A DNA stretch of 64,000 nucleotides, from the NCBI GenBank assembly GCA_023511995.1, contig JAIMAL010000005.1:62001-126000 (forward strand), written 5' to 3'. Under the pieces are notes generated by a model. It did no database searches, was not told the origin of the DNA, and worked only from the letters and a program-made list of their open reading frames with translations. The position numbers and the translations under genes are program-made. This DNA comes from Burkholderiales bacterium (lineage in GTDB: Bacteria; Pseudomonadota; Gammaproteobacteria; Burkholderiales; Thiobacteraceae). This document shows positions 9,819 through 32,233 of the stretch, piece by piece (position 1 is the first letter of the stretch; the number at the start of each line of letters is the position of its first letter).

Positions 9819-11618
9819 ATGTCCCGAGTGTCCACCGCCGACCCCGCCTGCAATCTCTGGCTCTACCGTCTTTTCCCCTTCCTGCGCTGGTGGCCGATGG
9901 TGAATCAGGAAACGCTCCGGGCGGACGCCCTGGCGGGACTGACCGGCGCCCTCATCGTGCTGCCCCAGGGGGTGGCCTTCGCCATCATCGCCGGCCTGCC
10001 TCCCCAGTACGGCCTCTACGCCGCCATGGTGCCCGCCATCATCGCCGCCCTCTTCGGCTCCAGCTGGCATCTGGTCTCCGGACCCACCACCGCCATCTCC
10101 ATCGCGGTGTTCGCCTCCGTCGCCCCCCACGCCACCCCAGGCTCCCCCGAGTTCATCTCCCTGGTGCTCACCCTCACCTTCCTCGTCGGCCTCTTCGAGC
10201 TCCTCCTGGGGCTCGCACGCATGGGCACCCTGGTCAACTTCATCTCCCACACCGTGGTCATCGGCTTCACCGCCGGCGCCGCCCTCCTCATCGCCGGCAG
10301 CCAGATCAAACACTTCTTCGGCCTCAACATGCCCCGCGGCCTGCCCCTGCACGAAATCCTCCACCAGCTCGTCCTGCAGGCCGATCACATCAACCCCTAC
10401 GTCACCGCCGTCGGCCTCATCACCCTCGCCGCAGGCATCCTCGTCAAACGCTTCCTGCCCCGCCTGCCCTACATGATCGCCGCCATGATCATCGGCTCCC
10501 TCGCCGCCTTCCTCCTCAACCAACACTTCGGCCCCCAGCATACCGGCATCCAAACCGTCGGCGCCCTGCCCGCCGGCTTGCCACCCCTCTCTTCGCCAGA
10601 CTTCTCCTTCAAGGCCCTGCGCGATATGTTCTTCCCCGCCCTGGTGGTGACCATGCTCGCCCTCACCGAGGCCGTCTCCATCTCCCGCGCCATCGCCGCC
10701 AAGTCCGAACAACGCATCGACGGCAACCAGGAATTCATCGGCCAGGGACTGTCCAACCTCATCGGCAGCTTCTTCTCCAGCTACGCCAGCAGCGGTTCCT
10801 TCAACCGCAGCGGCGTCAATTACGCCTCCGGCGCCCGCACCCCTCTGGCCGCCGTCTTCGCCTCCCTCGCCCTCGTCCTCATCCTCCTCCTCGTCGCCCC
10901 CCTTGCCGCCTACCTGCCCACCGCCGCCATGGCCGGCATCCTCTTCCTGGTCGCCTGGGGACTCATCGACTTCCATCACATCCGCACCATCTGGCATGTC
11001 AGCCGCACCGAGTCCCTCGTCCTCTGGGTCACCCTCATCGGCACCCTCATCGACCTGGAAAAAGGCATCTTCTTCGGCGTCCTCCTCTCCCTCCTCTTCT
11101 ACCTCTCCCGCACCTCCCGCCCCCAGGTGCAGGCCGTCGTCCCCGACCCCGAACCCGGCAGCTATCACTACATCGATGCCAGCGGCCACCCCGAATGCCC
11201 ACAGCTCAAAATGGTCCGCATCAACGGCTCCCTCTTCTTCGGCGCCGTCGATCACGTCCAGCAGCACCTGCACGCCATCGACACCATCCAGCCCACACAA
11301 AAACACGTCCTCATCGTCGCCTCCGGCATCAACTTCATCGACATCGCCGGCGCCGAAATGCTGGCCCACGAAGCACGCCGCCGCAAAACCCTGGGCGGCG
11401 GCCTGTACTTCTACCGCCTCAAGGAGACCGCCCAAAAAACCCTGGAAAAAACCGGCGCCCTCGATCAAATCGGCCGCGAAAACCTCTTCCCCGTCCGCAG
11501 CCGCCCCATCGAAACCCTCTACCCCAAACTCGACCCCGACCTGTGCGCCCGCTGCCGCGCGCGGATTTTCCCCGAATGTCAGGAACGCCTGCCGGACGGA
11601 CGCCCCCGGACCCTTTGA
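9819..11618 (+). CDS. SulP family anion transporter, copy 1
   Basis: A 599-residue inner-membrane transporter of the SulP/SLC26 family, which moves sulfate, bicarbonate or other anions. It has the family N-terminal signature ALAGLTGALIVLPQGVAFA with GLPPQYGLYAA, many hydrophobic helices to about residue 420, and a cytoplasmic STAS domain at roughly 440-560 (VRINGSLFFGAVDH, VLIVASGINFIDIAGAEML). The N-terminus (MSRVSTADPACNLW) and the C-terminal tail differ from copy 2, while residues 17 to about 571 are identical. The tail keeps a CARC-x7-C cysteine trio. Codons end almost always in C. Substrate is not determinable; sulfate export or bicarbonate uptake would both suit a sulfur-oxidising autotroph. 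Confidence 0.9.
   Translation: MSRVSTADPACNLWLYRLFPFLRWWPMVNQETLRADALAGLTGALIVLPQGVAFAIIAGLPPQYGLYAAMVPAIIAALFGSSWHLVSGPTTAISIAVFASVAPHATPGSPEFISLVLTLTFLVGLFELLLGLARMGTLVNFISHTVVIGFTAGAALLIAGSQIKHFFGLNMPRGLPLHEILHQLVLQADHINPYVTAVGLITLAAGILVKRFLPRLPYMIAAMIIGSLAAFLLNQHFGPQHTGIQTVGALPAGLPPLSSPDFSFKALRDMFFPALVVTMLALTEAVSISRAIAAKSEQRIDGNQEFIGQGLSNLIGSFFSSYASSGSFNRSGVNYASGARTPLAAVFASLALVLILLLVAPLAAYLPTAAMAGILFLVAWGLIDFHHIRTIWHVSRTESLVLWVTLIGTLIDLEKGIFFGVLLSLLFYLSRTSRPQVQAVVPDPEPGSYHYIDASGHPECPQLKMVRINGSLFFGAVDHVQQHLHAIDTIQPTQKHVLIVASGINFIDIAGAEMLAHEARRRKTLGGGLYFYRLKETAQKTLEKTGALDQIGRENLFPVRSRPIETLYPKLDPDLCARCRARIFPECQERLPDGRPRTL
9867..11531 (+). repeat. 1665-bp direct repeat, copy 1 (SulP body)
   Basis: This segment is repeated at 15271-16935, offset by 5404 bases. 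The only difference I found is A at 11468 against G at 16872, a silent change in a glutamine codon. Identity stops abruptly inside both genes. Before 9867 the N-terminal codons differ, and after 11531 the tails differ progressively although they remain homologous. This suggests recent gene conversion or recent duplication. Confidence 0.93.
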
Positions 11619-11643
11619 GCCAGCCGGCGAAGTCGGCTAGAAT

Positions 11644-11660
11644 TTGACGTTTTCTTGACA
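11644..11660 (+). promoter_or_regulatory. Two TTGAC repeats spaced 11 bases, upstream of small membrane protein
   Basis: TTGACG at 11644 and TTGACA at 11655 start exactly 11 bases apart, one helical turn. The 16-base block TTGACGTTTTCTTGAC differs at one base from 15182-15197 in front of the second SulP gene. Direct repeats with this period are typical binding sites of OmpR-family regulators, and such a regulator is encoded at 13145-13846. A short AGCCG/CGGCT stem (11622-11638) just upstream may mark the end of the SulP transcript. Confidence 0.55.
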
Positions 11661-11681
11661 TTTTTTCGGGAGCAATCACAA

Positions 11682-12017
11682 ATGGCAGAAGCCAGGACAC
11701 GCTGGACCACGACCCTGCTTTGGGGCGTGGCGGTGGCTCTTCTCTATTGGGCCCTTTTCCATTTCCAGGACGACATCGTCCGCCTTGCCCACACCACCGT
11801 GGATGCCTGCCTGGTGGTGGAAAACGGGAAGGAGCTCTACTACCACAAACCGACCCCGGAAGCCTGCGCCGCCAAGGGCGGTACCCTGATCGAGGGCAAC
11901 TGGCTCAACGTCCTGGTGCCCATCATCGCCGCTTTCGTCCTCTCCTACGTGCACGGCGCCTTCACCGGCATGTTCTGGGATGCCCTGGGCCTCAAGGCCG
12001 CCAACAAGAAGAAATAA
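11682..12017 (+). CDS. Small membrane protein preceding TauE/SafE exporter (unknown)
   Basis: A 111-residue protein that I do not recognise. It has two likely membrane helices (about residues 8-27 and 74-97), a polar loop between them with two cysteines (C43, C62), and a lysine-rich end (AANKKK). The start at 11682 is chosen for the GGGAG site 9 bases upstream. It is 13 bases before the TauE/SafE gene and is surely cotranscribed, so it is probably an accessory subunit or regulator of that exporter. The TTGAC repeat pair lies directly in front. Confidence 0.7.
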   Translation: MAEARTRWTTTLLWGVAVALLYWALFHFQDDIVRLAHTTVDACLVVENGKELYYHKPTPEACAAKGGTLIEGNWLNVLVPIIAAFVLSYVHGAFTGMFWDALGLKAANKKK

Positions 12018-12030
12018 GGGGAACGTCGCC

Positions 12031-13107
12031 ATGGAACTCATTCAATTCATCGACATCGACCTCACCGGTGCCCTGCTGCTGATCCTCATCGGTTTCATCG
12101 GTGGCATGGTGTCGGGCTTCATCGGCTCCGGCGGGGCCTTCGTCCTCACCCCGGCGATGATGACCCTGGGCGCGCCCGGTATCGTGGCCGTCGCCTCCAA
12201 CATCTGCCACAAGTTCCCGAAGGCGCTGGTGGGCGCCATCAAGCGCCACAAGTACGGTCAGGTGGACGTCAAGCTGGGCCTGGTCATGGGGGTGTTCGCC
12301 GAGCTGGGCATGCTCTATGGCAAGCAGGTGATGACCAGCATCAAGGACCGTTTCGGGGCGGTGGGCACCGATCTCTACGTGTCGGTGATCTTCGTCATCG
12401 TGCTCGCCATCGTCGGCGGTTTCGTCTATCGGGATTACCGCAAGCTGAAAAGCCATCCCCATGGTGAGGAACACCGGCTGACGCGGCTCGCCAGGTGGGT
12501 GCAGTCGGTACACATCCCGGGCACGATGGTCTATTTCCCGGGCGCGAAGGCGAAAATCTCGGTCCTCTTCGTCGCCCCCATGGGTTTTGCCACGGGCATG
12601 CTGGCTTCCACCATCGCTGTCGGCGGCTTCATCGGTGTACCCGCCATGATCTACATTTTCGGCGTGCCTGCGCTCATGGCTTCGGCGACCGAACTGGTGA
12701 TCGCCTTCGTCATGGGGCTGGGCGGGACCCTTTTCTACGGCCTGGAGGGCATGGTGGACCTGCGGCTGGCCATGCTCATCCTGTTGGGCTCCTTGTTCGG
12801 CATCCAGATTGGCGCCATCGGCACCACCTATGTGAAGGATTACCAGGTCAAGCTGACCATGGCGGTGATCATGATCACCGTGCTCTTCAGCCGTCTCTTC
12901 TACATCCCGGGCTACCTGTCGCAGCTTGGCCTCATCGAGCCGCTGCCTGCCAGCACGGTAAAGACGCTGAAAATGGCCGGCGACGGGGTGCTGGCCCTGG
13001 CCCTGGTGCTGGGAGCGGTCACCGTGCTGACCGCGCTGATCCGGGGCATGGCGGAACACCGGCGCCAGCACGAGGTCCTGAGCGAGACCCAGGGCATCGC
13101 CCAGTAG
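12031..13107 (+). CDS. TauE/SafE family sulfite/organosulfonate-type exporter
   Basis: A 358-residue membrane protein of the TauE/SafE (DUF81) family, many members of which export sulfite, sulfoacetate or related anions. The start MELIQFIDIDL follows an AAGGGG ribosome site. The two family repeats are visible: GGMVSGFIGSGGAFVLTPAMM near residue 25 and FATGMLASTIAVGGFIGVPAMIY near 200, each opening a set of about four helices. A hydrophilic loop of some 40 residues (DYRKLKSHPHGEEH onward) separates them. Placement between SulP genes and a two-component system suggests anion or sulfur-compound export, perhaps sulfite. Exact substrate unknown. Confidence 0.85.
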   Translation: MELIQFIDIDLTGALLLILIGFIGGMVSGFIGSGGAFVLTPAMMTLGAPGIVAVASNICHKFPKALVGAIKRHKYGQVDVKLGLVMGVFAELGMLYGKQVMTSIKDRFGAVGTDLYVSVIFVIVLAIVGGFVYRDYRKLKSHPHGEEHRLTRLARWVQSVHIPGTMVYFPGAKAKISVLFVAPMGFATGMLASTIAVGGFIGVPAMIYIFGVPALMASATELVIAFVMGLGGTLFYGLEGMVDLRLAMLILLGSLFGIQIGAIGTTYVKDYQVKLTMAVIMITVLFSRLFYIPGYLSQLGLIEPLPASTVKTLKMAGDGVLALALVLGAVTVLTALIRGMAEHRRQHEVLSETQGIAQ

Positions 13108-13144
13108 TCTGTTGAGCGGCGGCGGCAGCGCTACAATAGGGGCG

Positions 13145-13846
13145 ATGCGCCTGCTCATCATCGAAGACAATCCCGATCTCGCCGCCAACCTGCTGGAATT
13201 CCTGGCCGACCGCGGTCATACGGTGGATGTGGCCGGCGATGGACTCACCGGCCTGCATCTGGCCACGGTGAACGACTACGACGCCATCGTCCTCGACCTC
13301 ATGCTGCCGGGTATGGATGGCATCACGCTTTGCCGCAAACTGCGGGAGGAAGCGCAGAAAACCACACCCGTACTCATCGTCACCGCGCGCGATGCGCTGG
13401 ACGACAAAATCGTCGGCCTCGAATCGGGCGCCGATGATTACGTGGTCAAACCCTTCGCCCTGCGCGAAGTGGAAGCCCGGCTGAAGGCGCTGGCACGGCG
13501 TGCGCAGGGTCAGGGACTGCGCACCCGCCTGCAGGTGGGCGACCTGTCCTTCGATACCGACACCCTGAAAATCAGCCGTGGCCAGCGCGCCATCCAGTTG
13601 CCGCCGATTCCCTTGCGGCTTCTGGAAACCCTGATGCGCCATTCGCCGCGGGTACTGAGCCGCAGCGAGCTGGAGCACGCCATCTGGGGCGACACCCCGC
13701 CGGACAGCGATGCCCTGCGGGCCCACATGCATTTGTTGCGGCGGGCGATCGATGCGCCGGGTGAACGGCCCCTCCTGCACACCGTGCGGGGTCTGGGCTA
13801 TCAGTTGGCGGAAGAGGATGCCGCCTCGTCTGCGCCTTCCCCGTAG
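13145..13846 (+). CDS. OmpR-family response regulator
   Basis: A 233-residue two-domain regulator. The receiver domain (1-115) has acidic residues E7/D8, the phosphorylated D51 in VLDLMLPG, T80 and K102 in VVKPF. The C-terminal winged helix (about 130-225) has the typical HLLRRAID and TVRGLGYQL ending. It begins 37 bases after the TauE/SafE stop and overlaps the kinase gene by 29 bases. A TACAAT element at 13132-13137 may give an internal promoter, but the best upstream -35 (TTGAGC) is only 14 bases away. The 11-base-spaced TTGACG repeats upstream of both neighbouring transport units are its most likely targets. Confidence 0.92.
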   Translation: MRLLIIEDNPDLAANLLEFLADRGHTVDVAGDGLTGLHLATVNDYDAIVLDLMLPGMDGITLCRKLREEAQKTTPVLIVTARDALDDKIVGLESGADDYVVKPFALREVEARLKALARRAQGQGLRTRLQVGDLSFDTDTLKISRGQRAIQLPPIPLRLLETLMRHSPRVLSRSELEHAIWGDTPPDSDALRAHMHLLRRAIDAPGERPLLHTVRGLGYQLAEEDAASSAPSP

Positions 13847-15116
13847 CCTGCGGCTGCGCGTTGCCTTCACCTTCGCCTGGTTCGGCGCCCTGGTGAGCCT
13901 GCTGCTCGCCGCCGGGCTGTACGTTTCCGCCCGCGACCTCGGCACCCGCCTGCTGGATGAAACCCTGCGCGCCGAGATGGAGGACTACCTCGCGCGTCGC
14001 GCGCGCAATCCCCATTCCCTGCCCCCGCACACCCTCATGCTGCGGGGCTACGTGCTGGGCCCGGAAGCGAGCCGCGAGATACCGGAAGCGGTGCGCACCC
14101 TGCCCCTGGGCCAGTACAGCATCCCCCTAGAGGGCCGGCCCTACCGCGTCATCGTCGCCGAACGGGCGGGCGTGCGCCACGTCATGATGTTCGACGAAAC
14201 TCCGCACATTCAGCGGGAAAGGCGTTTCCTCTACGTGCTCGCGGCGGGAGTGGCCATCATGACCCTGCTGTCCGCCGCGGGGGGTTACTGGCTGGCCGGC
14301 CGCGTAGTGGCCCCGGTCACGCGACTGGCAAGGGAAATCAGCGAAGCCGACCCCGACGCCCAGGCCCCGGCGCTGGCCAGCCATTTCGGCGATGACGAAG
14401 TGGGCGAGATGGCGCGCGCCTTCGATGCCTACATCGAGCGACTGCGCGCCTTCATCGCCCGCGAACGCGCCTTCACCGCGGACGTGAGTCACGAATTGCG
14501 CACGCCCCTGGCGGTGATCCAGGGCGCCACCGAAGTCCTGCAGGAAGATCCCTCCCTCAACGGCCGGCAGCAGCAGAGGATCGCCCGCATCGCGCGCGCC
14601 AGCCGCGACATGGTGGAACTCATCACCGCCCTGCTGCTGCTCGCGCGCGAGGAAACCGCACGGGCCAACCCGGACGAAAGATGTTCCGTGCGGGAGGTCC
14701 TCACCGAGTGCATCGAGCATCATCGACCCCTCATCGCCGACCGCGCCATTCGCCTCGAACTGGCGCTCGACGCCGATCTTTGGCTGCCCGTCGAACGCAC
14801 CCTGCTGGCCGTGGTCATCGGCAACCTGATCCGCAACGCCTTTACCTATACGCAGGGTGGGACGGTGCGAATCCGCCTGTCCGGCGATCGTCTGGTGGTG
14901 GAGGACACCGGCATCGGCATCCGTGCCGACGAGCTGGCGCGGGTGTTCGAGCGCTACTACCGCGGCGCCGCAAGCAAAGGTGCCGGCATCGGACTTTCCC
15001 TGGTCAAGCGCATCTGCGACCGCCAAGGCTGGTCTATCACCCTCGACAGCGAGGAGGGACGGGGCACCACCGCCCAACTGGTTTTCCGCTCCTCAATCGG
15101 CCCCACCATTGGCTGA
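13818..15116 (+). CDS. Sensor histidine kinase
   Basis: A 432-residue membrane kinase that pairs with the preceding regulator. It has an N-terminal helix (about 14-36), a periplasmic segment of about 100 residues, a second helix (137-160), HAMP-like linker, dimerisation helix with phospho-acceptor H225 in ADVSHELRTP, and an ATPase domain with N box NLIRNAFTY and G boxes DTGIGI and GAGIGLSLVKRI. The start at 13818 lies inside the regulator gene and follows GGAAGAGG. The small periplasmic domain has no fold I can name, so the signal is unknown. An anion such as sulfite or bicarbonate is a reasonable guess from context only. Confidence 0.92.
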   Translation: MPPRLRLPRSLRLRVAFTFAWFGALVSLLLAAGLYVSARDLGTRLLDETLRAEMEDYLARRARNPHSLPPHTLMLRGYVLGPEASREIPEAVRTLPLGQYSIPLEGRPYRVIVAERAGVRHVMMFDETPHIQRERRFLYVLAAGVAIMTLLSAAGGYWLAGRVVAPVTRLAREISEADPDAQAPALASHFGDDEVGEMARAFDAYIERLRAFIARERAFTADVSHELRTPLAVIQGATEVLQEDPSLNGRQQQRIARIARASRDMVELITALLLLAREETARANPDERCSVREVLTECIEHHRPLIADRAIRLELALDADLWLPVERTLLAVVIGNLIRNAFTYTQGGTVRIRLSGDRLVVEDTGIGIRADELARVFERYYRGAASKGAGIGLSLVKRICDRQGWSITLDSEEGRGTTAQLVFRSSIGPTIG

Positions 15117-15159
15117 ATCAACCAGCGCAAGGAAGTCCCCCTCCCTCCTGCTCGCTCCT

Positions 15160-15214
15160 TTGACGCAGCCTTGATGCACCGTTGACGTTTCCTTGACGGG
15201 TGCAGAGCTAGCAT
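15160..15214 (+). promoter_or_regulatory. Four TTGA(C/T)G repeats at 11-base spacing plus -10, second SulP promoter
   Basis: TTGACG at 15160, TTGATG at 15171, TTGACG at 15182 and TTGACG at 15193 start at exact 11-base intervals. After the last repeat a 10-base gap leads to TAGCAT (15209-15214), a possible -10. This geometry, with direct repeats replacing the -35 and ending about 10 bases before the -10, is that of PhoB-type activated promoters. It lies between the kinase stop (15116) and the SulP start (15247) and would leave a leader of about 26 bases. Confidence 0.65.
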
Positions 15215-15246
15215 TGCGGGTTGCTTTTTTTCAAGCCCAGCAGCCC

Positions 15247-17040
15247 ATGCACGCCCAGCCTCTGCTTTATCGTCTTTTCCCCTTCCTGCGCTGGTGGCCG
15301 ATGGTGAATCAGGAAACGCTCCGGGCGGACGCCCTGGCGGGACTGACCGGCGCCCTCATCGTGCTGCCCCAGGGGGTGGCCTTCGCCATCATCGCCGGCC
15401 TGCCTCCCCAGTACGGCCTCTACGCCGCCATGGTGCCCGCCATCATCGCCGCCCTCTTCGGCTCCAGCTGGCATCTGGTCTCCGGACCCACCACCGCCAT
15501 CTCCATCGCGGTGTTCGCCTCCGTCGCCCCCCACGCCACCCCAGGCTCCCCCGAGTTCATCTCCCTGGTGCTCACCCTCACCTTCCTCGTCGGCCTCTTC
15601 GAGCTCCTCCTGGGGCTCGCACGCATGGGCACCCTGGTCAACTTCATCTCCCACACCGTGGTCATCGGCTTCACCGCCGGCGCCGCCCTCCTCATCGCCG
15701 GCAGCCAGATCAAACACTTCTTCGGCCTCAACATGCCCCGCGGCCTGCCCCTGCACGAAATCCTCCACCAGCTCGTCCTGCAGGCCGATCACATCAACCC
15801 CTACGTCACCGCCGTCGGCCTCATCACCCTCGCCGCAGGCATCCTCGTCAAACGCTTCCTGCCCCGCCTGCCCTACATGATCGCCGCCATGATCATCGGC
15901 TCCCTCGCCGCCTTCCTCCTCAACCAACACTTCGGCCCCCAGCATACCGGCATCCAAACCGTCGGCGCCCTGCCCGCCGGCTTGCCACCCCTCTCTTCGC
16001 CAGACTTCTCCTTCAAGGCCCTGCGCGATATGTTCTTCCCCGCCCTGGTGGTGACCATGCTCGCCCTCACCGAGGCCGTCTCCATCTCCCGCGCCATCGC
16101 CGCCAAGTCCGAACAACGCATCGACGGCAACCAGGAATTCATCGGCCAGGGACTGTCCAACCTCATCGGCAGCTTCTTCTCCAGCTACGCCAGCAGCGGT
16201 TCCTTCAACCGCAGCGGCGTCAATTACGCCTCCGGCGCCCGCACCCCTCTGGCCGCCGTCTTCGCCTCCCTCGCCCTCGTCCTCATCCTCCTCCTCGTCG
16301 CCCCCCTTGCCGCCTACCTGCCCACCGCCGCCATGGCCGGCATCCTCTTCCTGGTCGCCTGGGGACTCATCGACTTCCATCACATCCGCACCATCTGGCA
16401 TGTCAGCCGCACCGAGTCCCTCGTCCTCTGGGTCACCCTCATCGGCACCCTCATCGACCTGGAAAAAGGCATCTTCTTCGGCGTCCTCCTCTCCCTCCTC
16501 TTCTACCTCTCCCGCACCTCCCGCCCCCAGGTGCAGGCCGTCGTCCCCGACCCCGAACCCGGCAGCTATCACTACATCGATGCCAGCGGCCACCCCGAAT
16601 GCCCACAGCTCAAAATGGTCCGCATCAACGGCTCCCTCTTCTTCGGCGCCGTCGATCACGTCCAGCAGCACCTGCACGCCATCGACACCATCCAGCCCAC
16701 ACAAAAACACGTCCTCATCGTCGCCTCCGGCATCAACTTCATCGACATCGCCGGCGCCGAAATGCTGGCCCACGAAGCACGCCGCCGCAAAACCCTGGGC
16801 GGCGGCCTGTACTTCTACCGCCTCAAGGAGACCGCCCAAAAAACCCTGGAAAAAACCGGCGCCCTCGATCAGATCGGCCGCGAAAACCTCTTCCCCGTCC
16901 GCAGCCGCCCCATCGAAACCCTCTACCCCAAACTCAACCCCGAACTGTGCGCCCGCTGCGACAAGCGCATTTTCCACGTCTGCCGTCCACAAGCCGCCTC
17001 CAACGAACCGCTGCCCGGTCCTCTGCAGGCGGCCGGCTGA
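15247..17040 (+). CDS. SulP family anion transporter, copy 2
   Basis: A 597-residue SulP/SLC26 transporter whose residues 9 to about 563 are identical to copy 1 at 9819. The same transport domain and STAS domain are therefore present. It differs in a shorter start (MHAQPLL) and in the end, which reads NPELCARCDKRIFHVC and then an alanine/proline-rich tail. The ATG at 15247 is chosen because an upstream TTG (15193) lies inside the repeat operator and before the presumed transcription start. The promoter carries four regulator-type repeats, whereas copy 1 has none. The two copies may thus serve one transport function under different control. A universal-stress-type gene follows after 32 bases. 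Confidence 0.9.
   Translation: MHAQPLLYRLFPFLRWWPMVNQETLRADALAGLTGALIVLPQGVAFAIIAGLPPQYGLYAAMVPAIIAALFGSSWHLVSGPTTAISIAVFASVAPHATPGSPEFISLVLTLTFLVGLFELLLGLARMGTLVNFISHTVVIGFTAGAALLIAGSQIKHFFGLNMPRGLPLHEILHQLVLQADHINPYVTAVGLITLAAGILVKRFLPRLPYMIAAMIIGSLAAFLLNQHFGPQHTGIQTVGALPAGLPPLSSPDFSFKALRDMFFPALVVTMLALTEAVSISRAIAAKSEQRIDGNQEFIGQGLSNLIGSFFSSYASSGSFNRSGVNYASGARTPLAAVFASLALVLILLLVAPLAAYLPTAAMAGILFLVAWGLIDFHHIRTIWHVSRTESLVLWVTLIGTLIDLEKGIFFGVLLSLLFYLSRTSRPQVQAVVPDPEPGSYHYIDASGHPECPQLKMVRINGSLFFGAVDHVQQHLHAIDTIQPTQKHVLIVASGINFIDIAGAEMLAHEARRRKTLGGGLYFYRLKETAQKTLEKTGALDQIGRENLFPVRSRPIETLYPKLNPELCARCDKRIFHVCRPQAASNEPLPGPLQAAG
15271..16935 (+). repeat. 1665-bp direct repeat, copy 2 (SulP body)
   Basis: Second copy of the repeat at 9867-11531, in the same orientation. 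The copies bracket the small membrane protein, TauE/SafE exporter and two-component system. Homologous recombination between them would delete or amplify a 5404-bp unit. No transposase or terminal inverted repeats are seen at the edges, so a mobile element is not the cause. Confidence 0.93.
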
Positions 17041-17072: not shown

Positions 17073-17534
17073 ATGAGACACTGGCGCCGCATCCTCGCCC
17101 TGTTGGAACTGTCGCCGGCGGGTCAAACCCTCGCCACCCACGCCCGCGATCTCGCCCACCTGCACGGCGCGCAACTGATGCTGGGCACGATCGTGCCCCA
17201 CCGGCCCGGCTGGGAAACCTCAGAAGCGGAGTGGCTCACCCCGCAACAGGCCAGGGCTGCCCTGGAAGCCATTTTCCTGCAGCGGCTCCGGCGTCTCGCC
17301 GCACGCATCGGCACCGGGGAGGCACAGCTTTTCGCCCGGGCGGGTGCGATGTCCGCCTGCGTGCGCGATCTCATCGCCACCTGCGAACCCGATCTGGTGC
17401 TGGTGAGTCGCGCCGCACCCTTTGGCCTTCATGTCGCTGCAGACAATGAGGCTTTCGACCTGCTGGTCGTCCATGCGCCGCCTAGGAAAACTGTGCTGGG
17501 CCGCCTAGTCCGTGCCCTGGCGCTTGCCAGCTGA
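17073..17534 (+). CDS. Universal stress protein family protein, divergent
   Basis: A 153-residue protein with UspA-like layout: RRILALLELSPAGQTLATHARDLAHLHGAQLMLGTIV at the start, a central helical region, and CEPDLVLVSRAAPFG leading to a final strand LLVVHAPP. The usual G-x2-G-x9-G-S/T nucleotide motif before the last strand is missing, so it may not bind ATP. It starts 32 bases after the second SulP gene with an AAAGG ribosome site, so it is probably in the same transcript. Usp domains are often fused to or linked with SulP-type transporters, which supports a regulatory role. Confidence 0.7.
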   Translation: MRHWRRILALLELSPAGQTLATHARDLAHLHGAQLMLGTIVPHRPGWETSEAEWLTPQQARAALEAIFLQRLRRLAARIGTGEAQLFARAGAMSACVRDLIATCEPDLVLVSRAAPFGLHVAADNEAFDLLVVHAPPRKTVLGRLVRALALAS

Positions 17535-17705: not shown

Positions 17706-18266
17706 ATGATCCGCAAGAATCCCCGGGGCGACTGGCCCGTCGTCGCCGCCTCCGCCTTCGTCGATCCCACCGCCATTTTGTGCGGCAAGGTCATCGTCGG
17801 GGAAAACGTCTTCATCGGCCCCTATGCCGTGATCCGCGCCGATGAGGTGAACGAGGCGGGCGATATGGAACCCATCATCATCGGCGCCAATTCCAACATC
17901 CAGGACGGTGTGGTGATCCACTGTAAGGCCGGCGGGGGCGTGATCATCGGGGAAGGCACGTCGATCGCCCACCGCTCCATCGTGCACGGCCCATGCCGGG
18001 TGGGCAACAACGTCTTCATCGGCTTCAACTCGGTGCTGTTCAACTGCACCGTCGGCGATGGCTCGGTGGTCCGCCACAATTCCGTGGTGGAAGGGTGCAC
18101 CGTGCCGCCGGGTTTCTACATTCCCTCCACGGTCAATATCCATTCCGATGCCGATCTCGCCCGTATCGAGCGGGTGACGCCGGATGTGGCCGGTTTCTCC
18201 GAGTCGGTGGCGGAAGCCAACCGCGAGCTCGTCAAGGGCTACAACCGGATTCGCAACGAATTCTGA
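17706..18266 (+). CDS. Gamma-class carbonic anhydrase (CamH-like)
   Basis: A 186-residue left-handed beta-helix protein with hexapeptide repeats and a C-terminal helix. The three zinc/iron ligands of gamma carbonic anhydrases are in place: H72 in DGVVIHCK, H89 and H94 in SIAHRSIVHGP. The active-site residues R44, D46, Q66 and D67 also match archaeal Cam. The acidic proton-shuttle loop of Cam is missing, as in the CamH subgroup, and there is a six-residue insertion after D46. It would interconvert CO2 and bicarbonate in the cytoplasm. Its position between SulP genes and a membrane ion-pumping complex suggests inorganic-carbon handling, but this is inference. Confidence 0.82.
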   Translation: MIRKNPRGDWPVVAASAFVDPTAILCGKVIVGENVFIGPYAVIRADEVNEAGDMEPIIIGANSNIQDGVVIHCKAGGGVIIGEGTSIAHRSIVHGPCRVGNNVFIGFNSVLFNCTVGDGSVVRHNSVVEGCTVPPGFYIPSTVNIHSDADLARIERVTPDVAGFSESVAEANRELVKGYNRIRNEF

Positions 18267-18590: not shown

Positions 18591-20576
18591 ATGGCCTTCC
18601 TCCCTGGACCGTCGCTGCACCTGGCGTGGGCCTGTCTGCTGGCCTGGGCCGCGGTGGGGGGCCTTCATTTTCTCACCCCCGGGCGCCTCCTCTACCTCGT
18701 CTCGGCGCTGATCGCGCTCGTTTTCGCGGCAGTGGGCATCGCCGCCCTGCCGGGCCCGACCCAGGCCATGGTGTTGCCCCTGGGGCTGCCCGATCTGCCC
18801 TTCCATCTGCGCCTGGATGCCTTGTCCGCCTTTTTCGTCGTCGTGGAGGGGCTGGCCGCCTTCGGCGTGAGTCTCTATGGGGCGGGTTATTTCCGCCATC
18901 TTGAGGGGGCCGCCGCGCGCACCGCTGGCCTTTGGTACAACCTGTTCCTTGCCGGCATGGGGCTGGTGGTGCTGGCCGATGACGCCTACGTCTTCATGGT
19001 GGCCTGGGAAGTGATGGCCATCGCCTCCTATTTCCTGGTGACCACCGACCATGCGGTGGAGGAAATCCGCCGCGCGGGCTTCCTCTATCTGCTCATGGCC
19101 CACGTGGGGGCAGTCTCCCTGCTGCTCGCCTTCGGCGTGATCCAGGGCGGGCACGGTGCCTATACCTTCGAAGTCATGCGCGCGGCCACCCCCAGCCCTT
19201 TCTGGGCAACGGTGGCATTTCTGCTCGCCCTCGCCGGCTTCGGCGCTAAGGCGGGACTGGTGCCCCTGCACGTCTGGCTGCCGGAAGCGCATCCTGCAGC
19301 CCCTTCCCCGGTGTCAGCGCTAATGTCGGGCGTGATGCTGAAAACCGCGATCTATGGTCTTCTGCGGATCACCCTGGATCTTCTGCCGGCGCAGCCGGCC
19401 TGGTGGGGTACGCTGCTCATGGTGGTCGGCCTCGTCTCCGCCCTCTATGGTGTGATCTTTGCCGCGGTGCAATCCGACATCAAACGCCTGCTGGCGTGGT
19501 CCTCCATCGAGAACATCGGCATCATCGTCACCGGCATCGGACTTGCCCTCATATTCCGCGCCGAAGGCAAGGCGGCGCTCGCCGCCCTGGCAATGACGGC
19601 CGCCCTCTACCACGTCCTCAACCACGCCCTCATGAAGGGGCTGCTGTTCATCGGCACCGGCTCGGTCCTGCATGCCGCTGGCACACGGCTCATGGGTGGC
19701 CTTGGCGGCCTCATCCGCAGCATGCCGTGGACGGCAAGTCTCACGCTGGTCGGCGTGCTGGCCATTGCTGGCCTGCCACCCATGAACGGTTTCGTCTCCG
19801 AGTGGCTGCTGTTGCAGGCCTTTCTCTTCACCCCGGGGCTCACTGAGCCCTACCTCAACATGATCATTCCCGTGGCCGCCGCCGCCGTGGCACTCGCTGC
19901 GGCGCTCGCCGCCTACGTCATGGTGAAGTTCTATGGCGTGACCTTCCTCGGCCAGCCGCGCAGTGAGGAGCTGGCGCAGGCCCACGAGGCGGCGGGATTC
20001 GAGCGGCTGGGCATGGTCTGGCTCGCCGCCGCCTGCGTCACGCTGGGGCTCGTGCCCCCCATTGCCCTCGATTGGATCAAACCTGCCGCCAGCATGCTAT
20101 TGGGGGCGGCACTGCCCGTGCCCACCAGTGTCTTTCTCGCCCCCATCGATGCCGACCGCGCAAGCTATGCGCCGGCGGTCTTCTTCGCCGTGATTTTGGT
20201 CGTGTTCCTGCTCACCGTGGTGTGGGTGCGACTCGTCTACCACGGCCGGGTGCGGCGCGCGCCGGCCTGGGACTGCGGTTATCCGGAACAGGACGCACGC
20301 ATGCAGGATACGGCGGAGGGTTTCGGCCAGCCCATCCGCCAGATCTTCGAGCCATTCATGGGGGTCGAACGGGAAGTGCCGGATCCCTTCGACCGCCGGC
20401 CGCGTTATCGCGGGGCGACCCGGGATCGCCTCTGGTCCCTGCTCTATGCGCCCCTGGCGCGCGCGGTGGGCGGGCTCGCCGACACGGCCGCCCGGCTGCA
20501 GCATGGCCGCATCCAGTGGTATCTGTTCTACAGCTTCGCCACCCTCACCTTCCTCCTTTTCTTCGTGAGTGGCTGA
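18591..20576 (+). CDS. hyfB: HyfB-like proton-translocating membrane subunit
   Basis: A 661-residue polytopic protein of the complex I ND5/antiporter family, closest in layout to HyfB/HycC of group 4 hydrogenases. It shows the Proton_antipo_M signatures AWEVMAIASYFLV, GFGAKAGLVPLHVWLPEAHPAAPSPVSALMSG and DIKRLLAWSSIENIG, including the lysine and glutamate residues of the proton path. The C-terminal part carries the WDCGY segment typical of HyfB/HycC. First gene of the operon 18591-25727. It should contribute a proton or sodium pump. Confidence 0.9.
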   Translation: MAFLPGPSLHLAWACLLAWAAVGGLHFLTPGRLLYLVSALIALVFAAVGIAALPGPTQAMVLPLGLPDLPFHLRLDALSAFFVVVEGLAAFGVSLYGAGYFRHLEGAAARTAGLWYNLFLAGMGLVVLADDAYVFMVAWEVMAIASYFLVTTDHAVEEIRRAGFLYLLMAHVGAVSLLLAFGVIQGGHGAYTFEVMRAATPSPFWATVAFLLALAGFGAKAGLVPLHVWLPEAHPAAPSPVSALMSGVMLKTAIYGLLRITLDLLPAQPAWWGTLLMVVGLVSALYGVIFAAVQSDIKRLLAWSSIENIGIIVTGIGLALIFRAEGKAALAALAMTAALYHVLNHALMKGLLFIGTGSVLHAAGTRLMGGLGGLIRSMPWTASLTLVGVLAIAGLPPMNGFVSEWLLLQAFLFTPGLTEPYLNMIIPVAAAAVALAAALAAYVMVKFYGVTFLGQPRSEELAQAHEAAGFERLGMVWLAAACVTLGLVPPIALDWIKPAASMLLGAALPVPTSVFLAPIDADRASYAPAVFFAVILVVFLLTVVWVRLVYHGRVRRAPAWDCGYPEQDARMQDTAEGFGQPIRQIFEPFMGVEREVPDPFDRRPRYRGATRDRLWSLLYAPLARAVGGLADTAARLQHGRIQWYLFYSFATLTFLLFFVSG

Positions 20577-20577
20577 A

Positions 20578-21525
20578 ATGGAAAGCGGAATCGCCCTGCA
20601 ACTGGGCCAAACCCTGCTTGCTGTCCTCGCCGCACCTCTGCTTTTGGGCTGGGTCAATGCCTGCCGCGCCTGGCTTGCCAACCGGCGCGCGCCTTCTCTG
20701 CTTTTGCCCTATCGCAATCTGCGGCGGCTGTTCCACAAGGACGTGGTACTCGCACCCCACGCCTCCGCCCTCTTCCGCGTCGCCCCCTATGTCATCTTCG
20801 CCGCCATGGTGCTGGCGGCCGGCATCGTGCCCACCCTCATCAACGATCTGCCCTTCTCCCCCGCTGCCGATGCCATCGCCCTGGTCGGGCTTTTCGCCGT
20901 GGCGCGTGTGTTCCAGGCCCTGGCGGCGATGGACGTGGGCACCTCCTTCGGCACCCTGGGTGCACGCCGCGAGATGCTGGTGGCTTTCCTGGCGGAGCCT
21001 GCTTTGCTCATGGTCTTCTTCACCGCCAGCCTGATCGCCAAGTCCACCGCCCTGCCCACCATCGTCGAGGTGTTCGCGCATCAGCAATTCGCCATCTATC
21101 CTAGCCTGGCCTTTGCCGCCGTCGCCTTCTGGATGGTGTCCACGGCGGAAAACGCGCGCATCCCGGTGGACAACCCCACCACCCACCTGGAACTGACCAT
21201 GATCCACGAGGCGATGATCCTGGAGTATTCCGGGCGTCATCTCGCCCTCATCGAGTGGGCGGTGGCGCTGAAACTGTTCACCTATTCCACCCTGGGCATC
21301 GCGCTGTTTCTGCCCTGGGGCATTGCCCCCGTGGGCGACTGGATGGGGCTCCCCCTCGCCCTAGTCGCCCTCACACTGAAGCTTTTGGCAGGCGGCTTCG
21401 CCCTGGCTCTCCTGGAAACCCTCAATGCCAAGCTGCGCCTGTTCCGCGTTCCGGAATTTCTCGGCACCGCCTTTCTCCTCGCCGTGCTGGGCATGCTGGT
21501 GCATTTCCTCCTGGAGCACCCATGA
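20578..21525 (+). CDS. hyfC: HyfC-like membrane anchor subunit (NuoH family)
   Basis: A 315-residue membrane protein of the NuoH/HyfC/HycD family that docks the soluble arm to the membrane. Characteristic text includes LGWVNACRAWLANRRAPSLLLPYRNLRRLFHKD at the N-terminus and the acidic loop AENARIPVDNPTTHLELTMIHEAMILEYSGR, which forms the quinone-chamber region in complex I. About eight helices are predicted. The ATG at 20578 comes just after the hyfB stop; an in-frame GTG nine bases earlier is an alternative. The stop overlaps the next gene by four bases. Confidence 0.92.
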   Translation: MESGIALQLGQTLLAVLAAPLLLGWVNACRAWLANRRAPSLLLPYRNLRRLFHKDVVLAPHASALFRVAPYVIFAAMVLAAGIVPTLINDLPFSPAADAIALVGLFAVARVFQALAAMDVGTSFGTLGARREMLVAFLAEPALLMVFFTASLIAKSTALPTIVEVFAHQQFAIYPSLAFAAVAFWMVSTAENARIPVDNPTTHLELTMIHEAMILEYSGRHLALIEWAVALKLFTYSTLGIALFLPWGIAPVGDWMGLPLALVALTLKLLAGGFALALLETLNAKLRLFRVPEFLGTAFLLAVLGMLVHFLLEHP

Positions 21526-22184
21526 ACCTGCCGCTTCCCCTCCAATTCGTCAATCTGCTGGCCGCTGCGCTGCTCCTCATCGCCTTTGCCCTGCTGTCGC
21601 AGCGGCGCATCGTCGGCCTCATCACCCTTTTTGCCTGGCAGGGCTTGGCACTCACGCTGTCCACCACCCTGGTGGCGCTCTACACGCGACAACCCCACCT
21701 GCTCGCTTCCGCCGCCCTCACGCTGCTGCTCAAGGTGATCGTGCTGCCCTGGATTTTCTTCCGCCTGGTACGGCGGCTGGACATGGAACGCGACGTGGAG
21801 CCGGTGATCAACATTCCCACCACCATGCTGATCGGCATCGTGCTGGTGATTTTCGCCTTCAACCTGGCCCAGCCCATTTCCGCCCTTGCTGGCACCGTCA
21901 CGCGCTCGACGCTGGGGATCGCCATGGCGGTGGTTTTGATCTCCTTCCTGACCATGATCACGCGGCGCCAGGCCATCGCCCAGGTGATCGGCTTTCTCGC
22001 CATGGAGAACGGTCTCTTCTTCGCCGCCACCAGTGCCACCTATGGCGTGCCGCTGGTGGTGGAGCTGGGCATCGCGCTGGATGTGCTGGTGGGGGTGTTC
22101 GTCCTCGTGATCTTCTTCTTCCAGATCCGGGAGACCTTCGAATCCCTCGATCTGAGACACCTGGAGCGCCTGAAGGAACGCTGA
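21522..22184 (+). CDS. hyfE: HyfE-like membrane subunit (NuoK-related)
   Basis: A 220-residue hydrophobic protein of the HyfE family, whose C-terminal half resembles NuoK/MnhC. It has about six or seven helices. The conserved glutamate is in QVIGFLAMENGLFF, and VVELGIALDVLVGVFVLVIFFFQI follows. Coupled to hyfC by an ATGA overlap. In this operon there is no hyfD gene, so HyfE is followed directly by HyfF. Confidence 0.9.
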   Translation: MNLPLPLQFVNLLAAALLLIAFALLSQRRIVGLITLFAWQGLALTLSTTLVALYTRQPHLLASAALTLLLKVIVLPWIFFRLVRRLDMERDVEPVINIPTTMLIGIVLVIFAFNLAQPISALAGTVTRSTLGIAMAVVLISFLTMITRRQAIAQVIGFLAMENGLFFAATSATYGVPLVVELGIALDVLVGVFVLVIFFFQIRETFESLDLRHLERLKER

Positions 22185-22185
22185 G

Positions 22186-23637
22186 ATGACGCTGGCCCTC
22201 GTCCTGCTGCTGCCCCTCTTCGGTGGTCTGGTGCTCGCCGTGGTGGGACATCGCCGTATCGCACCGGCGATCAATGTCCTGTTCACTCTGGCCACCTTCC
22301 TCGCCGCCTTGGCCCTGAGCTATTCAGTGGCATTGGAGGGGCCATTCACCACTGCCCGCGACTGGTTCTTCATCGATCCCTTCAATGTGTTTCTGGTGGC
22401 GCTCACCGCCTTCGTCGGCTTCACCACCGCCGTCTTCTCCCGCCCCTACATGCGCATCGAGGAGGCCCATGGCCGCGTCACGGCGGCGCGCCTGCGCATG
22501 TACCACGCGAGCTACCAGATCTTCCTCGGCATGATGCTGGTCGCCCTCACCACCAACAATATGGGCATCCTGTGGGTGGCCATGGAGGGCGCCACCCTGG
22601 CCACCGTGCTGTTGGTCTCCCTCTACCGCACGCCGGCCTCGCTGGAGGCGGCGTGGAAGTATTTCATCCTCTGTGGTGTCGGCATCGCCCAGGCGTTGTT
22701 CGGCACCATCCTGCTTTATTTCGCGGCCGAGCGTGTGCTGGGGGAAGGGGGCACCGCCCTTTTGTGGACGCATCTGGACGGCGTGAAGACGCAGCTGGAA
22801 CCGGTGGTGCTGCAGCTCGCCTTCATCTTCCTGCTGGTGGGCTATGGCACCAAGGTGGGGCTGGTGCCGCTGCACAGTTGGCTGCCGGATGCCCATGCGG
22901 AGGGGCCCACGCCGGTGTCGGCGGTGCTCTCCGGGCTGCTGCTCAATGTGGCGCTGTATGCCATCGTCCGCTGCAAGGTGCTGGTGGATGGGGCGCTAAA
23001 CACCCATCTGGCGGGCAACCTGATGATGGGGTTCGGTGTGGCAAGCGTGGTGCTCGCCGCTTTCCTCCTGCGGCGTCAGACCGACGTGAAGCGGATGTTC
23101 GCCTATTCCTCCATCGAACACATGGGGCTCATCACCTTCGCCTTTGGCATGGGCGGCGTGACAGCAAGCTTCGCCGGGCTTTTGCATATGACCATGCATT
23201 CGCTCACCAAATCGGCGATCTTCTATGCCGTGGGGCACGCCACGCAGAAGGCGGGGACCCAGGTGATGGCCGACATCGGCGGCCTGATCCGTTCCAACCC
23301 CACCATCGGCTGGGGGCTGCTTTTGGGCACCGTGGCCATTCTTGGTGTCCCGCCCTTCGGCGTGTTCGCCAGCGAGTTCCTCATCATCACCACCGCCATG
23401 CACGATCACCCCTGGGCCACGCCTTTCCTTATCACCGCGCTCGGCGTGGCCTTCGCCGCCATCTTCGGCCGGGTGCAGCCCATGGTCTTCGGCGAGGCAC
23501 GGCTGCCCCGTCTGCCGCATCAGCCGGCACTTTTGCCCGTGTTCCTGCATCTTGCCCTGGTGCTCGTGCTGGGCCTGTTCATCCCCGGCTTCCTCGCCGA
23601 TTGGTATCGTCAGGCGGCGCGCCTGCTGGGAGGCTGA
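22186..23637 (+). CDS. hyfF: HyfF-like proton-translocating membrane subunit
   Basis: A 483-residue antiporter-like subunit of the ND4/ND2/ND5 family. It has the motifs NNMGILWVAMEGATLATVLLVS, GYGTKVGLVPLHSWLPDAHAEGPTPVSAVLSG and DVKRMFAYSSIEHMGLITFA. The ion-path lysines in GTKVGL and DVKRM and the glutamate in AMEGA are retained, so pumping should be possible. With HyfB this gives the complex two antiporter-like modules. It starts 1 base after the hyfE stop. Confidence 0.92.
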   Translation: MTLALVLLLPLFGGLVLAVVGHRRIAPAINVLFTLATFLAALALSYSVALEGPFTTARDWFFIDPFNVFLVALTAFVGFTTAVFSRPYMRIEEAHGRVTAARLRMYHASYQIFLGMMLVALTTNNMGILWVAMEGATLATVLLVSLYRTPASLEAAWKYFILCGVGIAQALFGTILLYFAAERVLGEGGTALLWTHLDGVKTQLEPVVLQLAFIFLLVGYGTKVGLVPLHSWLPDAHAEGPTPVSAVLSGLLLNVALYAIVRCKVLVDGALNTHLAGNLMMGFGVASVVLAAFLLRRQTDVKRMFAYSSIEHMGLITFAFGMGGVTASFAGLLHMTMHSLTKSAIFYAVGHATQKAGTQVMADIGGLIRSNPTIGWGLLLGTVAILGVPPFGVFASEFLIITTAMHDHPWATPFLITALGVAFAAIFGRVQPMVFGEARLPRLPHQPALLPVFLHLALVLVLGLFIPGFLADWYRQAARLLGG

Positions 23638-23640
23638 ACC

Positions 23641-25179
23641 ATGCCACGCCACATCGACCTCATCTCCCTGCCGCAACACGGTGGCGGCCCCATCTGGCAG
23701 TTTTCCCTGGGCCGGGAGCGGTTGACCGCCTTTGCCCGCGGCATCCAGGAGGAAGGCGGACAGCTCCTCGCCCTGTGGGGCAGTGACGACCGGCACCTGG
23801 GCTCAGGCTTCACCCTGCATACGGCCTATCTTTCCTCCTTGGGCCTTATCTGGGCGAAAACCCGGCTCGATGGGGAAAAGCCGCTGTACCCGGACATCGC
23901 GCACATCTTCCCGCAGGCGGACCGCATGCAGCGGGCAACCTTCGACCTGCTGGGTCTCGTGGCTGACGGCGCGCAAGACACCCGCAAATGGCTGCGCCAT
24001 GCCGCCTGGGGCGAAGGCGAATTCCCCCTGCGCAAGGATTTCACCACCGCGCATCCCGAGGCCATCGATGCCTATCCCTTCATCCGGGTGGAAGGGCAGG
24101 GGGTGCACGAAATCCCCGTGGGGCCCATCCACGCCGGGGTGATCGAACCCGGACATTTTCGCTTCTCTGTGATCGGCGACCGGGTGCTGCGCCTGGAAGA
24201 GCGCCTGGGCTACACCCACAAGGGCGTGGAAAAGCGGTTCGAGGGGATGGATCCGGCAGCGGGCGCGCGGCTGGCGGGGCGGGTGTCCGGCGACAGTCAC
24301 AGCGCCTTCACCTGGGCCTTTTGTCTTGCGGTGGAAAGCGCCCTGCAAACCCCGGCGCCGCCCCGCGCCCAGTGGTTGCGCGCCCTTTTCCTGGAAATCG
24401 AGCGACTCGTCAATCATCTGGGGGATTTGGGTTACCTGGGCAATGATGTGGCACTGGGCTTCGGTTTCAATCAGTTCTGGCGCGTCAAGGAAATCTGGCT
24501 GCGCGCCTGCAAGGAGTGGTTCAGTCACCGCTATCTTTTCGATTGCATCGTGCCCGGTGGCGTGGCGCGCGATCTCGCGCCCGCCGCGGCCAAGGAATTG
24601 GTTCGGCTGGGCGCGGAAACGCGGCATGAAGTAACGGAACTCATGGAGGTGTACGAAGAGCACGCCGGCGTGCAGGATCGCTTCACCGGCACCGGCACCG
24701 TCGCCCCTGCCCTTGCCGCCCGCATGGGGCTGACCGGTCTGGCGGGAAGGGCAAGCAGCCAGGCGTGGGACGCACGGGTGCAGTTCCCCCATCCCCCCTA
24801 CGACCAGCTCGAGGTGCAGATGGTGGTGGAACGCGCCGGCGACGTGGCGGCACGTGTGCGGGTGCGCGCCGGCGAGGTGTTGGAGTCCCTGCGCCTCTTG
24901 GAGGCCATCGTGGAGAATCTGCCGGAAGGGCCACTGGCGCAGCCGCTGCCGCAACCGGGTTCGGTGTGCGAAGGTCTGGGCTGGATCGAGGGCTGGCGCG
25001 GACCGGTCATCGTTTATGCCCGCCTCGCGGAGGATGGGCGCCTCGACCGCGTGCATCCCCACGATCCCTCGTGGCAGAACTGGCCGCTTCTGGAACTTAG
25101 CATCCTGGGCAACATCGTTCCGGATTTCCCCCTCATCAACAAATCCTTCAACCTCTCGTACAGCGGAGCGGATCTCTGA
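23641..25179 (+). CDS. hyfG: HyfG-like large subunit (NuoC-NuoD fusion) lacking NiFe cysteines
   Basis: A 512-residue protein with a NuoC-like N-terminal domain (about 1-135, ending GEFPLRKDF) fused to a NuoD/hydrogenase large-subunit domain (EIPVGPIHAGVIEPGHFRF, LGYTHKGVEKRF). In true group 4 hydrogenases two CxxC pairs bind NiFe. Here the first is R214-V-S-G-D-S-H, with serines S216 and S219 at the cysteine positions, and the C-terminus is SFNLSYSGADL without any cysteine. The protein therefore cannot hold a NiFe centre and is not a hydrogenase. This fits the Ehr type of complex. Substrate unknown; possibly a quinone-like or soluble redox partner. Confidence 0.88.
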   Translation: MPRHIDLISLPQHGGGPIWQFSLGRERLTAFARGIQEEGGQLLALWGSDDRHLGSGFTLHTAYLSSLGLIWAKTRLDGEKPLYPDIAHIFPQADRMQRATFDLLGLVADGAQDTRKWLRHAAWGEGEFPLRKDFTTAHPEAIDAYPFIRVEGQGVHEIPVGPIHAGVIEPGHFRFSVIGDRVLRLEERLGYTHKGVEKRFEGMDPAAGARLAGRVSGDSHSAFTWAFCLAVESALQTPAPPRAQWLRALFLEIERLVNHLGDLGYLGNDVALGFGFNQFWRVKEIWLRACKEWFSHRYLFDCIVPGGVARDLAPAAAKELVRLGAETRHEVTELMEVYEEHAGVQDRFTGTGTVAPALAARMGLTGLAGRASSQAWDARVQFPHPPYDQLEVQMVVERAGDVAARVRVRAGEVLESLRLLEAIVENLPEGPLAQPLPQPGSVCEGLGWIEGWRGPVIVYARLAEDGRLDRVHPHDPSWQNWPLLELSILGNIVPDFPLINKSFNLSYSGADL

Positions 25180-25727
25180 TGGCCAGCCACCTCATCCTCG
25201 CCAAACTGTTGCGGACCGGCATCGTCTCGGAACCCGCCCCGCCTGCGGATCCCGGCCTGCTCACCGACCCTGCGCGGCTCAACGAGGCGATTCTCCGTGT
25301 GTTCGGGCGGGCCGTCGTGGTCCGCCACATAGATGCGGGCTCCTGCAATGGCTGTGAGCTGGAAATCCATGCCTTGAACGGCCCCCACTACAACATCGAG
25401 GGGGTGGGGGTGAAATTCGCCGCCAGTCCCCGCCACGCCGATGTGTTGCTGGTGACCGGCCCCGTTTCCGCCCATCTGGAGACCGCCCTGCGGCGCACCC
25501 ATGAGGCCACCCCGGACCCGAAATGGGTGGTCGCCGTGGGCGACTGCGCGGCCAGCGGCGGCATCTTCGGCGAATCCTACGCAAGCCGGGGAAGAGTCGA
25601 AAACGTGATCCCCGTGGACGTGGTCGTCCCCGGCTGCCCCCCGGAGCCCGGCCGCATCCTCGCTGGCATCCTCGCCGCCGTCTCCGCCACACCCCGCAAC
25701 CATTCCTCCCCTCAAGGCGTGCGGTGA
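25179..25727 (+). CDS. hyfI: HyfI-like iron-sulfur small subunit (NuoB family)
   Basis: A 182-residue NuoB/HyfI-type protein. All four cluster ligands are present: C56 and C59 (GSCNGCE), C123 (VGDCAASGG) and C153 (VPGCPPEPGRIL), so one [4Fe-4S] cluster next to the large subunit should remain. Its first base is the last base of the hyfG stop. No HyfH/NuoI ferredoxin-like subunit is encoded next to it, so the input electron chain from other clusters is missing or encoded elsewhere. Confidence 0.9.
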   Translation: MASHLILAKLLRTGIVSEPAPPADPGLLTDPARLNEAILRVFGRAVVVRHIDAGSCNGCELEIHALNGPHYNIEGVGVKFAASPRHADVLLVTGPVSAHLETALRRTHEATPDPKWVVAVGDCAASGGIFGESYASRGRVENVIPVDVVVPGCPPEPGRILAGILAAVSATPRNHSSPQGVR

Positions 25728-29381: not shown

Positions 29382-29393
29382 CTTCCTCTCTCC

Positions 29394-30017: not shown

Positions 30018-30027
30018 CCTCCGGCTC

Positions 30028-32229: not shown

Positions 32230-32233
32230 TTGT

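Follow-up and report, generated by a model that had tools for sequence, protein, structure and literature searches.

In front of sulP2, the second of two SulP-type transporter genes of a Burkholderiales bacterium, lies an array of four direct repeats with an exact 11-base period. We consider it probable (about 85%) that this array is the operator of the OmpR/PhoB-family regulator encoded next to it, and that a tandem tetramer of this protein activates sulP2 without a -35 element. The array occurs once in the genome, keeps its four units, its period and its distance to the -10 element in relatives and travels with the transporter gene. Since an array of such exact spacing is kept beside the same regulator in many relatives, this protein very probably docks there. 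From the sequences we infer that the regulator would bind in a phosphorylation-dependent manner and would activate rather than repress. Positions refer to the window, i.e., the whole stretch of 64,000 nucleotides that was analysed, and are collected in Table 1 together with the features of related loci.

Table 1. Features of the window and genes or sites associated with the array in related loci.
Feature	Position or locus	Strand	Remark
sulP1, paralogue without operator	9819..11618	+	
hyp-tauE promoter TTGAGC-17-TAGAAT	11615..11643	+	sigma-70-like call
Two-unit site TTGACG-N5-TTGACA, TTGACGTTTTCTTGACA	11644..11660	+	directly past the hyp-tauE -10
hyp, small protein, 111 aa	11682..12017	+	no Pfam or NCBIfam match
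TauE/SafE-type exporter	12031..13107	+	Pfam TauE 6.9e-37 (read from 12028, same frame)
OmpR/PhoB-family response regulator, 233 aa, putative binder	13145..13846	+	Response_reg 2.5e-27, Trans_reg_C 3.9e-18
Sensor histidine kinase, 432 aa, overlaps regulator gene	13818..15116	+	HisKA, HATPase_c; HAMP just under cut-off
Operator unit 1 (putative) TTGACG	15160..15165	+	sequence, genome uniqueness, locus comparison
Operator unit 2 (putative) TTGATG	15171..15176	+	one departure from TTNAC; L020 (same genus) also TTGATG
Operator unit 3 (putative) TTGACG	15182..15187	+	sequence, locus comparison
Operator unit 4 (putative) TTGACG	15193..15198	+	ends ten bases (15199-15208) before the -10
-10 element TAGCAT, sulP2 promoter	15209..15214	+	no sigma-70-like hexamer pair called there
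sulP2, SulP/SLC26-type anion transporter with STAS, 597 aa, putative target	15247..17040	+	Pfam Sulfate_transp 1.9e-96, STAS 2e-10
Small ORF, universal-stress-protein-like	17073-17534	+	by eye
Gamma-carbonic-anhydrase-like hexapeptide protein	17706-18266	+	ahead of hydrogenase-4-like cluster
Array target: flavocytochrome c sulfide dehydrogenase (FCSD) flavoprotein	L077, L082		L082 by translation likeness only
Second, 3-mismatch array before FCSD flavoprotein	L072		
Array target: secreted protein, one CXXCH near N-terminus	L085-L088, L136		L086-L088 and L136 by translation likeness only
Array target: small protein, then TauE	L081		
Array target: universal-stress protein	L051		
Array target: YfdX	L063		
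Array target: sulfatase-fold enzymes	L064, L066		EptA among the non-SulP targets
Array targets: unclassified genes	L053, L058		
65-70 aa KxDRxxTAxAxAxAGDLD protein	L080 10023-10217; L225 1629-1841		
Oppositely oriented arrays	L070 second array, 4085 from regulator start; L217 near 4848		

The repeat array in front of sulP2

The first-pass annotation of this DNA had described four TTGA(C/T)G repeats with an 11-base period and a TAGCAT -10 element ten bases past the last of them, and both were verified in the sequence. It had also placed the array next to the kinase gene, which is correct, at a distance of 44 bases, which is actually 43 (the kinase stop codon ends at 15116). The naming of sulP2 as a second SulP gene holds as well, the near-identical sulP1 preceding it. 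The start codon of sulP2 is most likely the ATG at 15247, 32 bases past the -10 element; among the listed SulP promoters of the window's subtype, 29-34 bp separate the end of the -10 element from the ATG. The TTG start given by the ORF caller (15193) falls within the last repeat. No repeats of this type were seen in the DNA before sulP1, and in the window the regulator gene is not preceded by an array. Among the loci listed, arrays within 270 bp of the regulator occur in L063 and, as a weak one with 5 mismatches, in L054.

A genome search for pairs of such repeats at 11-base spacing, proposed earlier as a check, was run on all 2,507,758 bases of the genome. Searched as an exact pair, TTGAYG-N5-TTGAYG gave three overlapping forward-strand matches, all at this locus, and the reversed control pattern gave none. 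In dinucleotide shuffles of the window (n=100) exact pairs appeared with a mean of 0.02 and never three times. When one mismatch was allowed, the genome held 22 matches versus 11 for the reversed control pattern, and therefore most single mismatched pairs are noise. A profile search, in which the best 150 of 493 candidates were scored, returned the window site as the single match at E<=1 in this genome.

Conservation of the array beside the regulator

In the family, 5 of 10 genomes, the present one counted, have the regulator at E<=1e-60; a sample of 399 genomes from the order yielded 61 with it at E<=1e-65. For the comparison we used 49 regulator loci, comprising the window, those of 44 among the 60 further genomes of the order that have the regulator (the 16 left out stand lower in the score list) and 4 of at least 80 named loci. 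They include two MAGs labelled Nitrosomonadales bacterium, are not independent of one another, and their regulators range from 89 down to about 51 percent identity to that of the window.

Strict TTGACG arrays stand directly behind the kinase gene in a number of these loci. When the intergenic DNA was read across loci, the unit turned out to be TTNAC and not TTGACG, and the general pattern was set to (TTNAC-N6)x3-TTNAC-N11-TANNNT with 19 scored bases, of which up to 3 were allowed to mismatch. It is present in 34 of the 49 loci, 15 of them without any mismatch, and missing at this threshold in the other 15; sites were picked with the same pattern that was later counted, which inflates matches within the pattern and leaves the registers outside it unaffected. 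Among other OmpR-family loci the general pattern occurs in 1/76 and the TTGAYG form in 0/76, which supports the earlier proposal of a candidate operator for this two-component system. The reversed pattern and periods of 9, 10, 12 or 13 bases gave 0/49 each. Perfect matches were found in 15 loci at the 11-base gap to TANNNT and in none at gaps of 8, 9, 10, 12, 13 or 14 bases, where a wrong gap costs at most 3 mismatches.

Within 275 bp around and after the kinase stop codon, 23 of 49 stretches match at up to 3 mismatches versus 10 of 4676 control stretches from the same loci. These ten control matches sit in eight loci that have no site behind the kinase gene (L022, L023, L049-L052, L063, L085), and five of them precede a SulP gene upstream of the regulator. 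As read from offsets of -4 and -15, unit 1 shares bases with the stop codon of the kinase gene in 9 of these 23 stretches and unit 2 does so in 3 more. The adjoining registers are nearly empty, with a further unit before 3 and after 0 of the 34 sites, so four units are the rule.

The regulator of the window belongs to a supported clade of 23 members (98/93), 20 of which have the array in the DNA around the regulator gene. Of the exceptions, G070 (L075) has its array before a SulP gene at a distance of 56 kb from the regulator and is thus the 21st member with an array; G206 (L074) gave no profile match at E<=1 (best 150 of 635 candidates scored), and a MAG (L137) has no array in its regulator locus. 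The comparison of orthologous loci for cases with the regulator and without the repeats, which the first-pass annotation had named as the way to refute an operator, accordingly mostly does not refute it.

Distribution of the array in genomes

Of the 61 genomes with the regulator, 15 have three-unit TTGACG arrays (at most one mismatch), as do 8 of the 338 without it (Fisher one-sided p 2e-8). In 12 of the 15 the array lies within a few kb of the regulator gene; in G019, G070 and G237 it lies elsewhere, the match of G237 being inside an ORF. The reversed control pattern was found in 11 genomes, none of which carries the regulator.

For a profile search of 33 genomes, in each of which the best 150 candidates were scored, 20 sites served as the training set. 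Exactly one match at E<=1.3e-6 was obtained in 20 genomes, 19 of which had supplied training sites; the best site of G070, outside the training set, reaches E 9.9e-11 and precedes a small protein gene and the SulP gene. Secondary matches with E 7e-5 to 9e-4, one in G070 and two in G033, mean that the rule of one target is not strict. The remaining 13 genomes have weak best matches (E 4e-4 to 0.34) or none (G004, G006, G206), and the weak matches in G173, G113, G008 and G002 precede SulP genes that are 72-75 percent identical to sulP2 over the compared stretch.

Promoters that carry the array

The array belongs to the promoter of its target and not to the regulator gene, because it stays with SulP where this gene lies upstream of the regulator (the array precedes SulP in L022, L023, L049, L050 and L052) and because the distant site of G070 stands before a SulP gene. 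A SulP gene follows 20 of the 34 arrays, in six cases after a small ORF. Thirteen of these genes are of the window's subtype, six belong to a second subtype and follow the gene of a small conserved protein, and one in L059 is shorter. Other genes follow the remaining 14 arrays (Table 1). The presence of FCSD and TauE among the predicted targets points to a possible role of the system in sulfur metabolism, and the carbonic-anhydrase-like neighbour in the window to a possible one in inorganic carbon metabolism.

In several genomes the second SulP subtype is separated from the array by the gene for a protein of 65-70 aa that belongs to no family and contains a KxDRxxTAxAxAxAGDLD stretch. G075 and G070 have a further TTGAC array upstream of SulP, oriented the opposite way.

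The regulator and its kinase

The regulator consists of a receiver and a winged-helix Trans_reg_C domain, both above the Pfam cut-off, and is a member of the OmpR/PhoB family. Its gene overlaps that of a HisKA/HATPase_c kinase, and in all 49 loci the regulator gene is followed by one for a kinase homologue, which in a few is partial or cut by contig ends. No NCBIfam name reached its cut-off among the 25 matches listed. The regulator scores 171.8 bits against the PhoB model (cut-off 296.2), 164 against PmrA (330) and 143 against CreB (273), and stays far below the cut-offs for QseB, TctD and CzcR/CopR. Comparison with PDB sequences gives it no name among the matches listed; BasR structures match at 2e-38, and structures of M. 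tuberculosis PhoP are among the nearest.

The periplasmic part of the kinase matched no Pfam family. In the structural model it forms a four-strand domain (block pLDDT 75-93), and in a PDB fold search with the kinase model the best 50 matches were all kinases. By eye, the third base of the unit showed no clean link to residues of the recognition helix.

Proposed mechanism and alternatives

The first-pass annotation had likened the site to promoters activated by OmpR/PhoB-type regulators. With 11-bp direct repeats, 10 bp to the -10 element and no -35 element, the geometry bears this out and is that of a class II (pho-box-like) operator, in which about 10 bp lead to the -10 element and the -35 element is replaced. 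The phosphorylated regulator would bind head to tail with one monomer per 11-bp unit, and the tandem tetramer would occupy a single face of the DNA helix. The last unit would stand in for the missing -35 element, from which the regulator is expected to recruit sigma-70 polymerase and to activate sulP2.

The genome encodes seven full-length OmpR-family regulators, six besides this one, and TTNAC-like repeats at 11 bp are read by other subfamilies too. Another of these proteins might therefore bind the array, its position beside this pair being incidental. This is quite unlikely, as the array recurs beside homologues of this very pair in differing gene contexts and is absent from 75 of the 76 other OmpR-type loci in its general form and from all 76 in the TTGAYG form. 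Repression of sulP2, with the array blocking polymerase upstream of the -10 element, is also unlikely. Some OmpR-family proteins do repress, and sequence alone gives no direction; however, no sigma-70-like -35/-10 pair was called for sulP2, and in loci with a well-preserved array the spacing to the -10 element is that of pho-box activators. Slippage could yield four near-identical units, but a chance or functionless tandem duplication of an 11-mer has a negligible probability, given that the spacers differ both within and between species but the TTNAC positions are retained, and that chance controls are near zero.

A two-unit site in front of hyp-tauE

The promoter of hyp-tauE is the only sigma-70-like one called in 11550-15300, with 0.5 expected in shuffles, and directly past its -10 element lies a two-unit site. 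The operator inventory of the first-pass annotation, which was right about the four-unit array, had missed this site as well as the TTNAC unit and the linkage to the target. The register of the two units is kept in the two nearest species (TTGACG/TTGACG in L020, TTAACG/TTAACA in L021). In L021, TTAAC stands in place of the window's TTGAC both in the two-unit site and throughout the four-unit array of sulP2, and the flanks have diverged.

The site would lie over the start point of transcription, which suggests repression of hyp-tauE. The regulator may then act as a dual switch that activates sulP2 through four units and represses hyp-tauE through two, raising one anion transporter and lowering another, and this would extend rather than oppose the activation of sulP2 proposed above. 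We regard it as not quite an even bet. In its favor are the position directly past the -10 element in the window, L020 and L021, the change from TTGAC to TTAAC common to both sites in L021, and the -35 element that the hyp promoter of the window has of its own. However, the site is known from three related species, was not seen by eye before hyp in four distant loci (L065, L072, L073, L077) and is absent from the profile matches at E<=1 in its own genome, where one-mismatch pairs are mostly noise. The letter change is not clean either, as the sulP2 array of L020 mixes TTAACG and TTGACG, and repression is read from position alone. With three species, the mixing in L020 and the four distant hyp genes without it, the two-unit site is only a lead.

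Relation to known systems

The closest parallel is the PhoB-controlled pstS promoter of E. coli, which in our own reading also has four 11-bp direct-repeat units, the third degenerate, and no -35 element. We take its last pho unit to lie 10 bp before the -10 element as well. There, too, a regulator of the OmpR/PhoB family acts on the transporter of an inorganic anion. The 69-nt stretch used as query ends 37 bases before the annotated pstS gene in the one record opened and is present in 5372 of 5426 E. coli genomes. The systems differ in readout, TGTCA for PhoB and TTNAC here. The present array recurs before several kinds of genes. The PhoB regulon is broad, whereas 20 genomes searched here show one strong site each. 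According to an excerpt of PMC4971064, PhoB reads two direct repeats of 7 bp, each followed by 4 bp, and the box usually replaces the -35 element in E. coli.

For PhoP of M. tuberculosis, the part of PMC4832192 consulted describes a 7-bp motif with a required 4-bp spacer and cooperative binding to tri- and tetra-repeats that is tighter than to pairs. This PhoP has another motif and another regulon and is a different orthologue from the regulator described here.

The boxes of PmrA/BasR and CreB have half-sites of the TTAA or TTCAC type at 11-bp spacing, usually two. In sequence these half-sites resemble the TTNAC unit.

The anions carried by SulP-family transporters of autotrophs include sulfate and bicarbonate. 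sulP2 encodes a member of this family (SLC26) with Sulfate_transp and STAS domains and a score above the cut-off of NCBIfam sulP (TIGR00815). It reaches 197.9 bits against the model of the bicarbonate transporter BicA (cut-off 880) and is far below the cut-off of the DauA model. The solved structures that score best against SulP are prestin and a plant sulfate transporter, and SulP homologues on plasmids are all less than 60% identical. In some autotrophic Pseudomonadota SulP members carry bicarbonate, and one SulP that was tested gave no growth rescue (excerpt of PMC12628692). The term 'two-component' is absent from the main text, in the portions covered, of two papers on inorganic carbon uptake (PMC12628692, PMC10880623), and the matches listed from the open-access literature hold nothing on this motif or this two-component system.

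The kind of system is known and ordinary, its conservation is unusually good, and new are the regulator, its operator and their targets. A regulator of unassigned role would thereby gain an exactly placed operator together with its principal target, and a profile to search with. As the genes behind the operator change from lineage to lineage and the geometry of the site stays constant, it would be a clean example of promoter capture by a single regulator. A wider picture, tentative and with the odds somewhat against it, would be that of a two-component system, unassigned so far, of Burkholderiales-like bacteria, probably oxidizers of sulfur and iron. It would act largely on a single promoter in each genome by way of a four-unit operator passed among unrelated targets (three SulP subtypes, the sulfide dehydrogenase flavoprotein and the secreted CXXCH protein) and, in the window's family, would read a two-unit site in the opposite sense and so switch between SulP uptake and TauE export.

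Neighboring genes

The coding DNA of sulP1 and sulP2 is identical over about 1.66 kb (alignment columns 48-1712, one mismatch), and the ends and promoters of the two genes differ. This looks like recent gene conversion or assembly collapse and would amount to nearly one protein under two promoters. In L020, of the same genus, the two sulP copies are about 84 percent identical.

The genes for a hydrogenase-4-like membrane complex lie at 18591-25727, the first of them scoring above the cut-off of the hydrogenase 4 subunit B model. They stand close behind the gamma-carbonic-anhydrase-like protein, and the complex might be a CO2-linked one. On the minus strand, at 28482-33520, translations read like a heterodisulfide-reductase/Qmo-like gene set, which suggests that the organism is a sulfur oxidizer.
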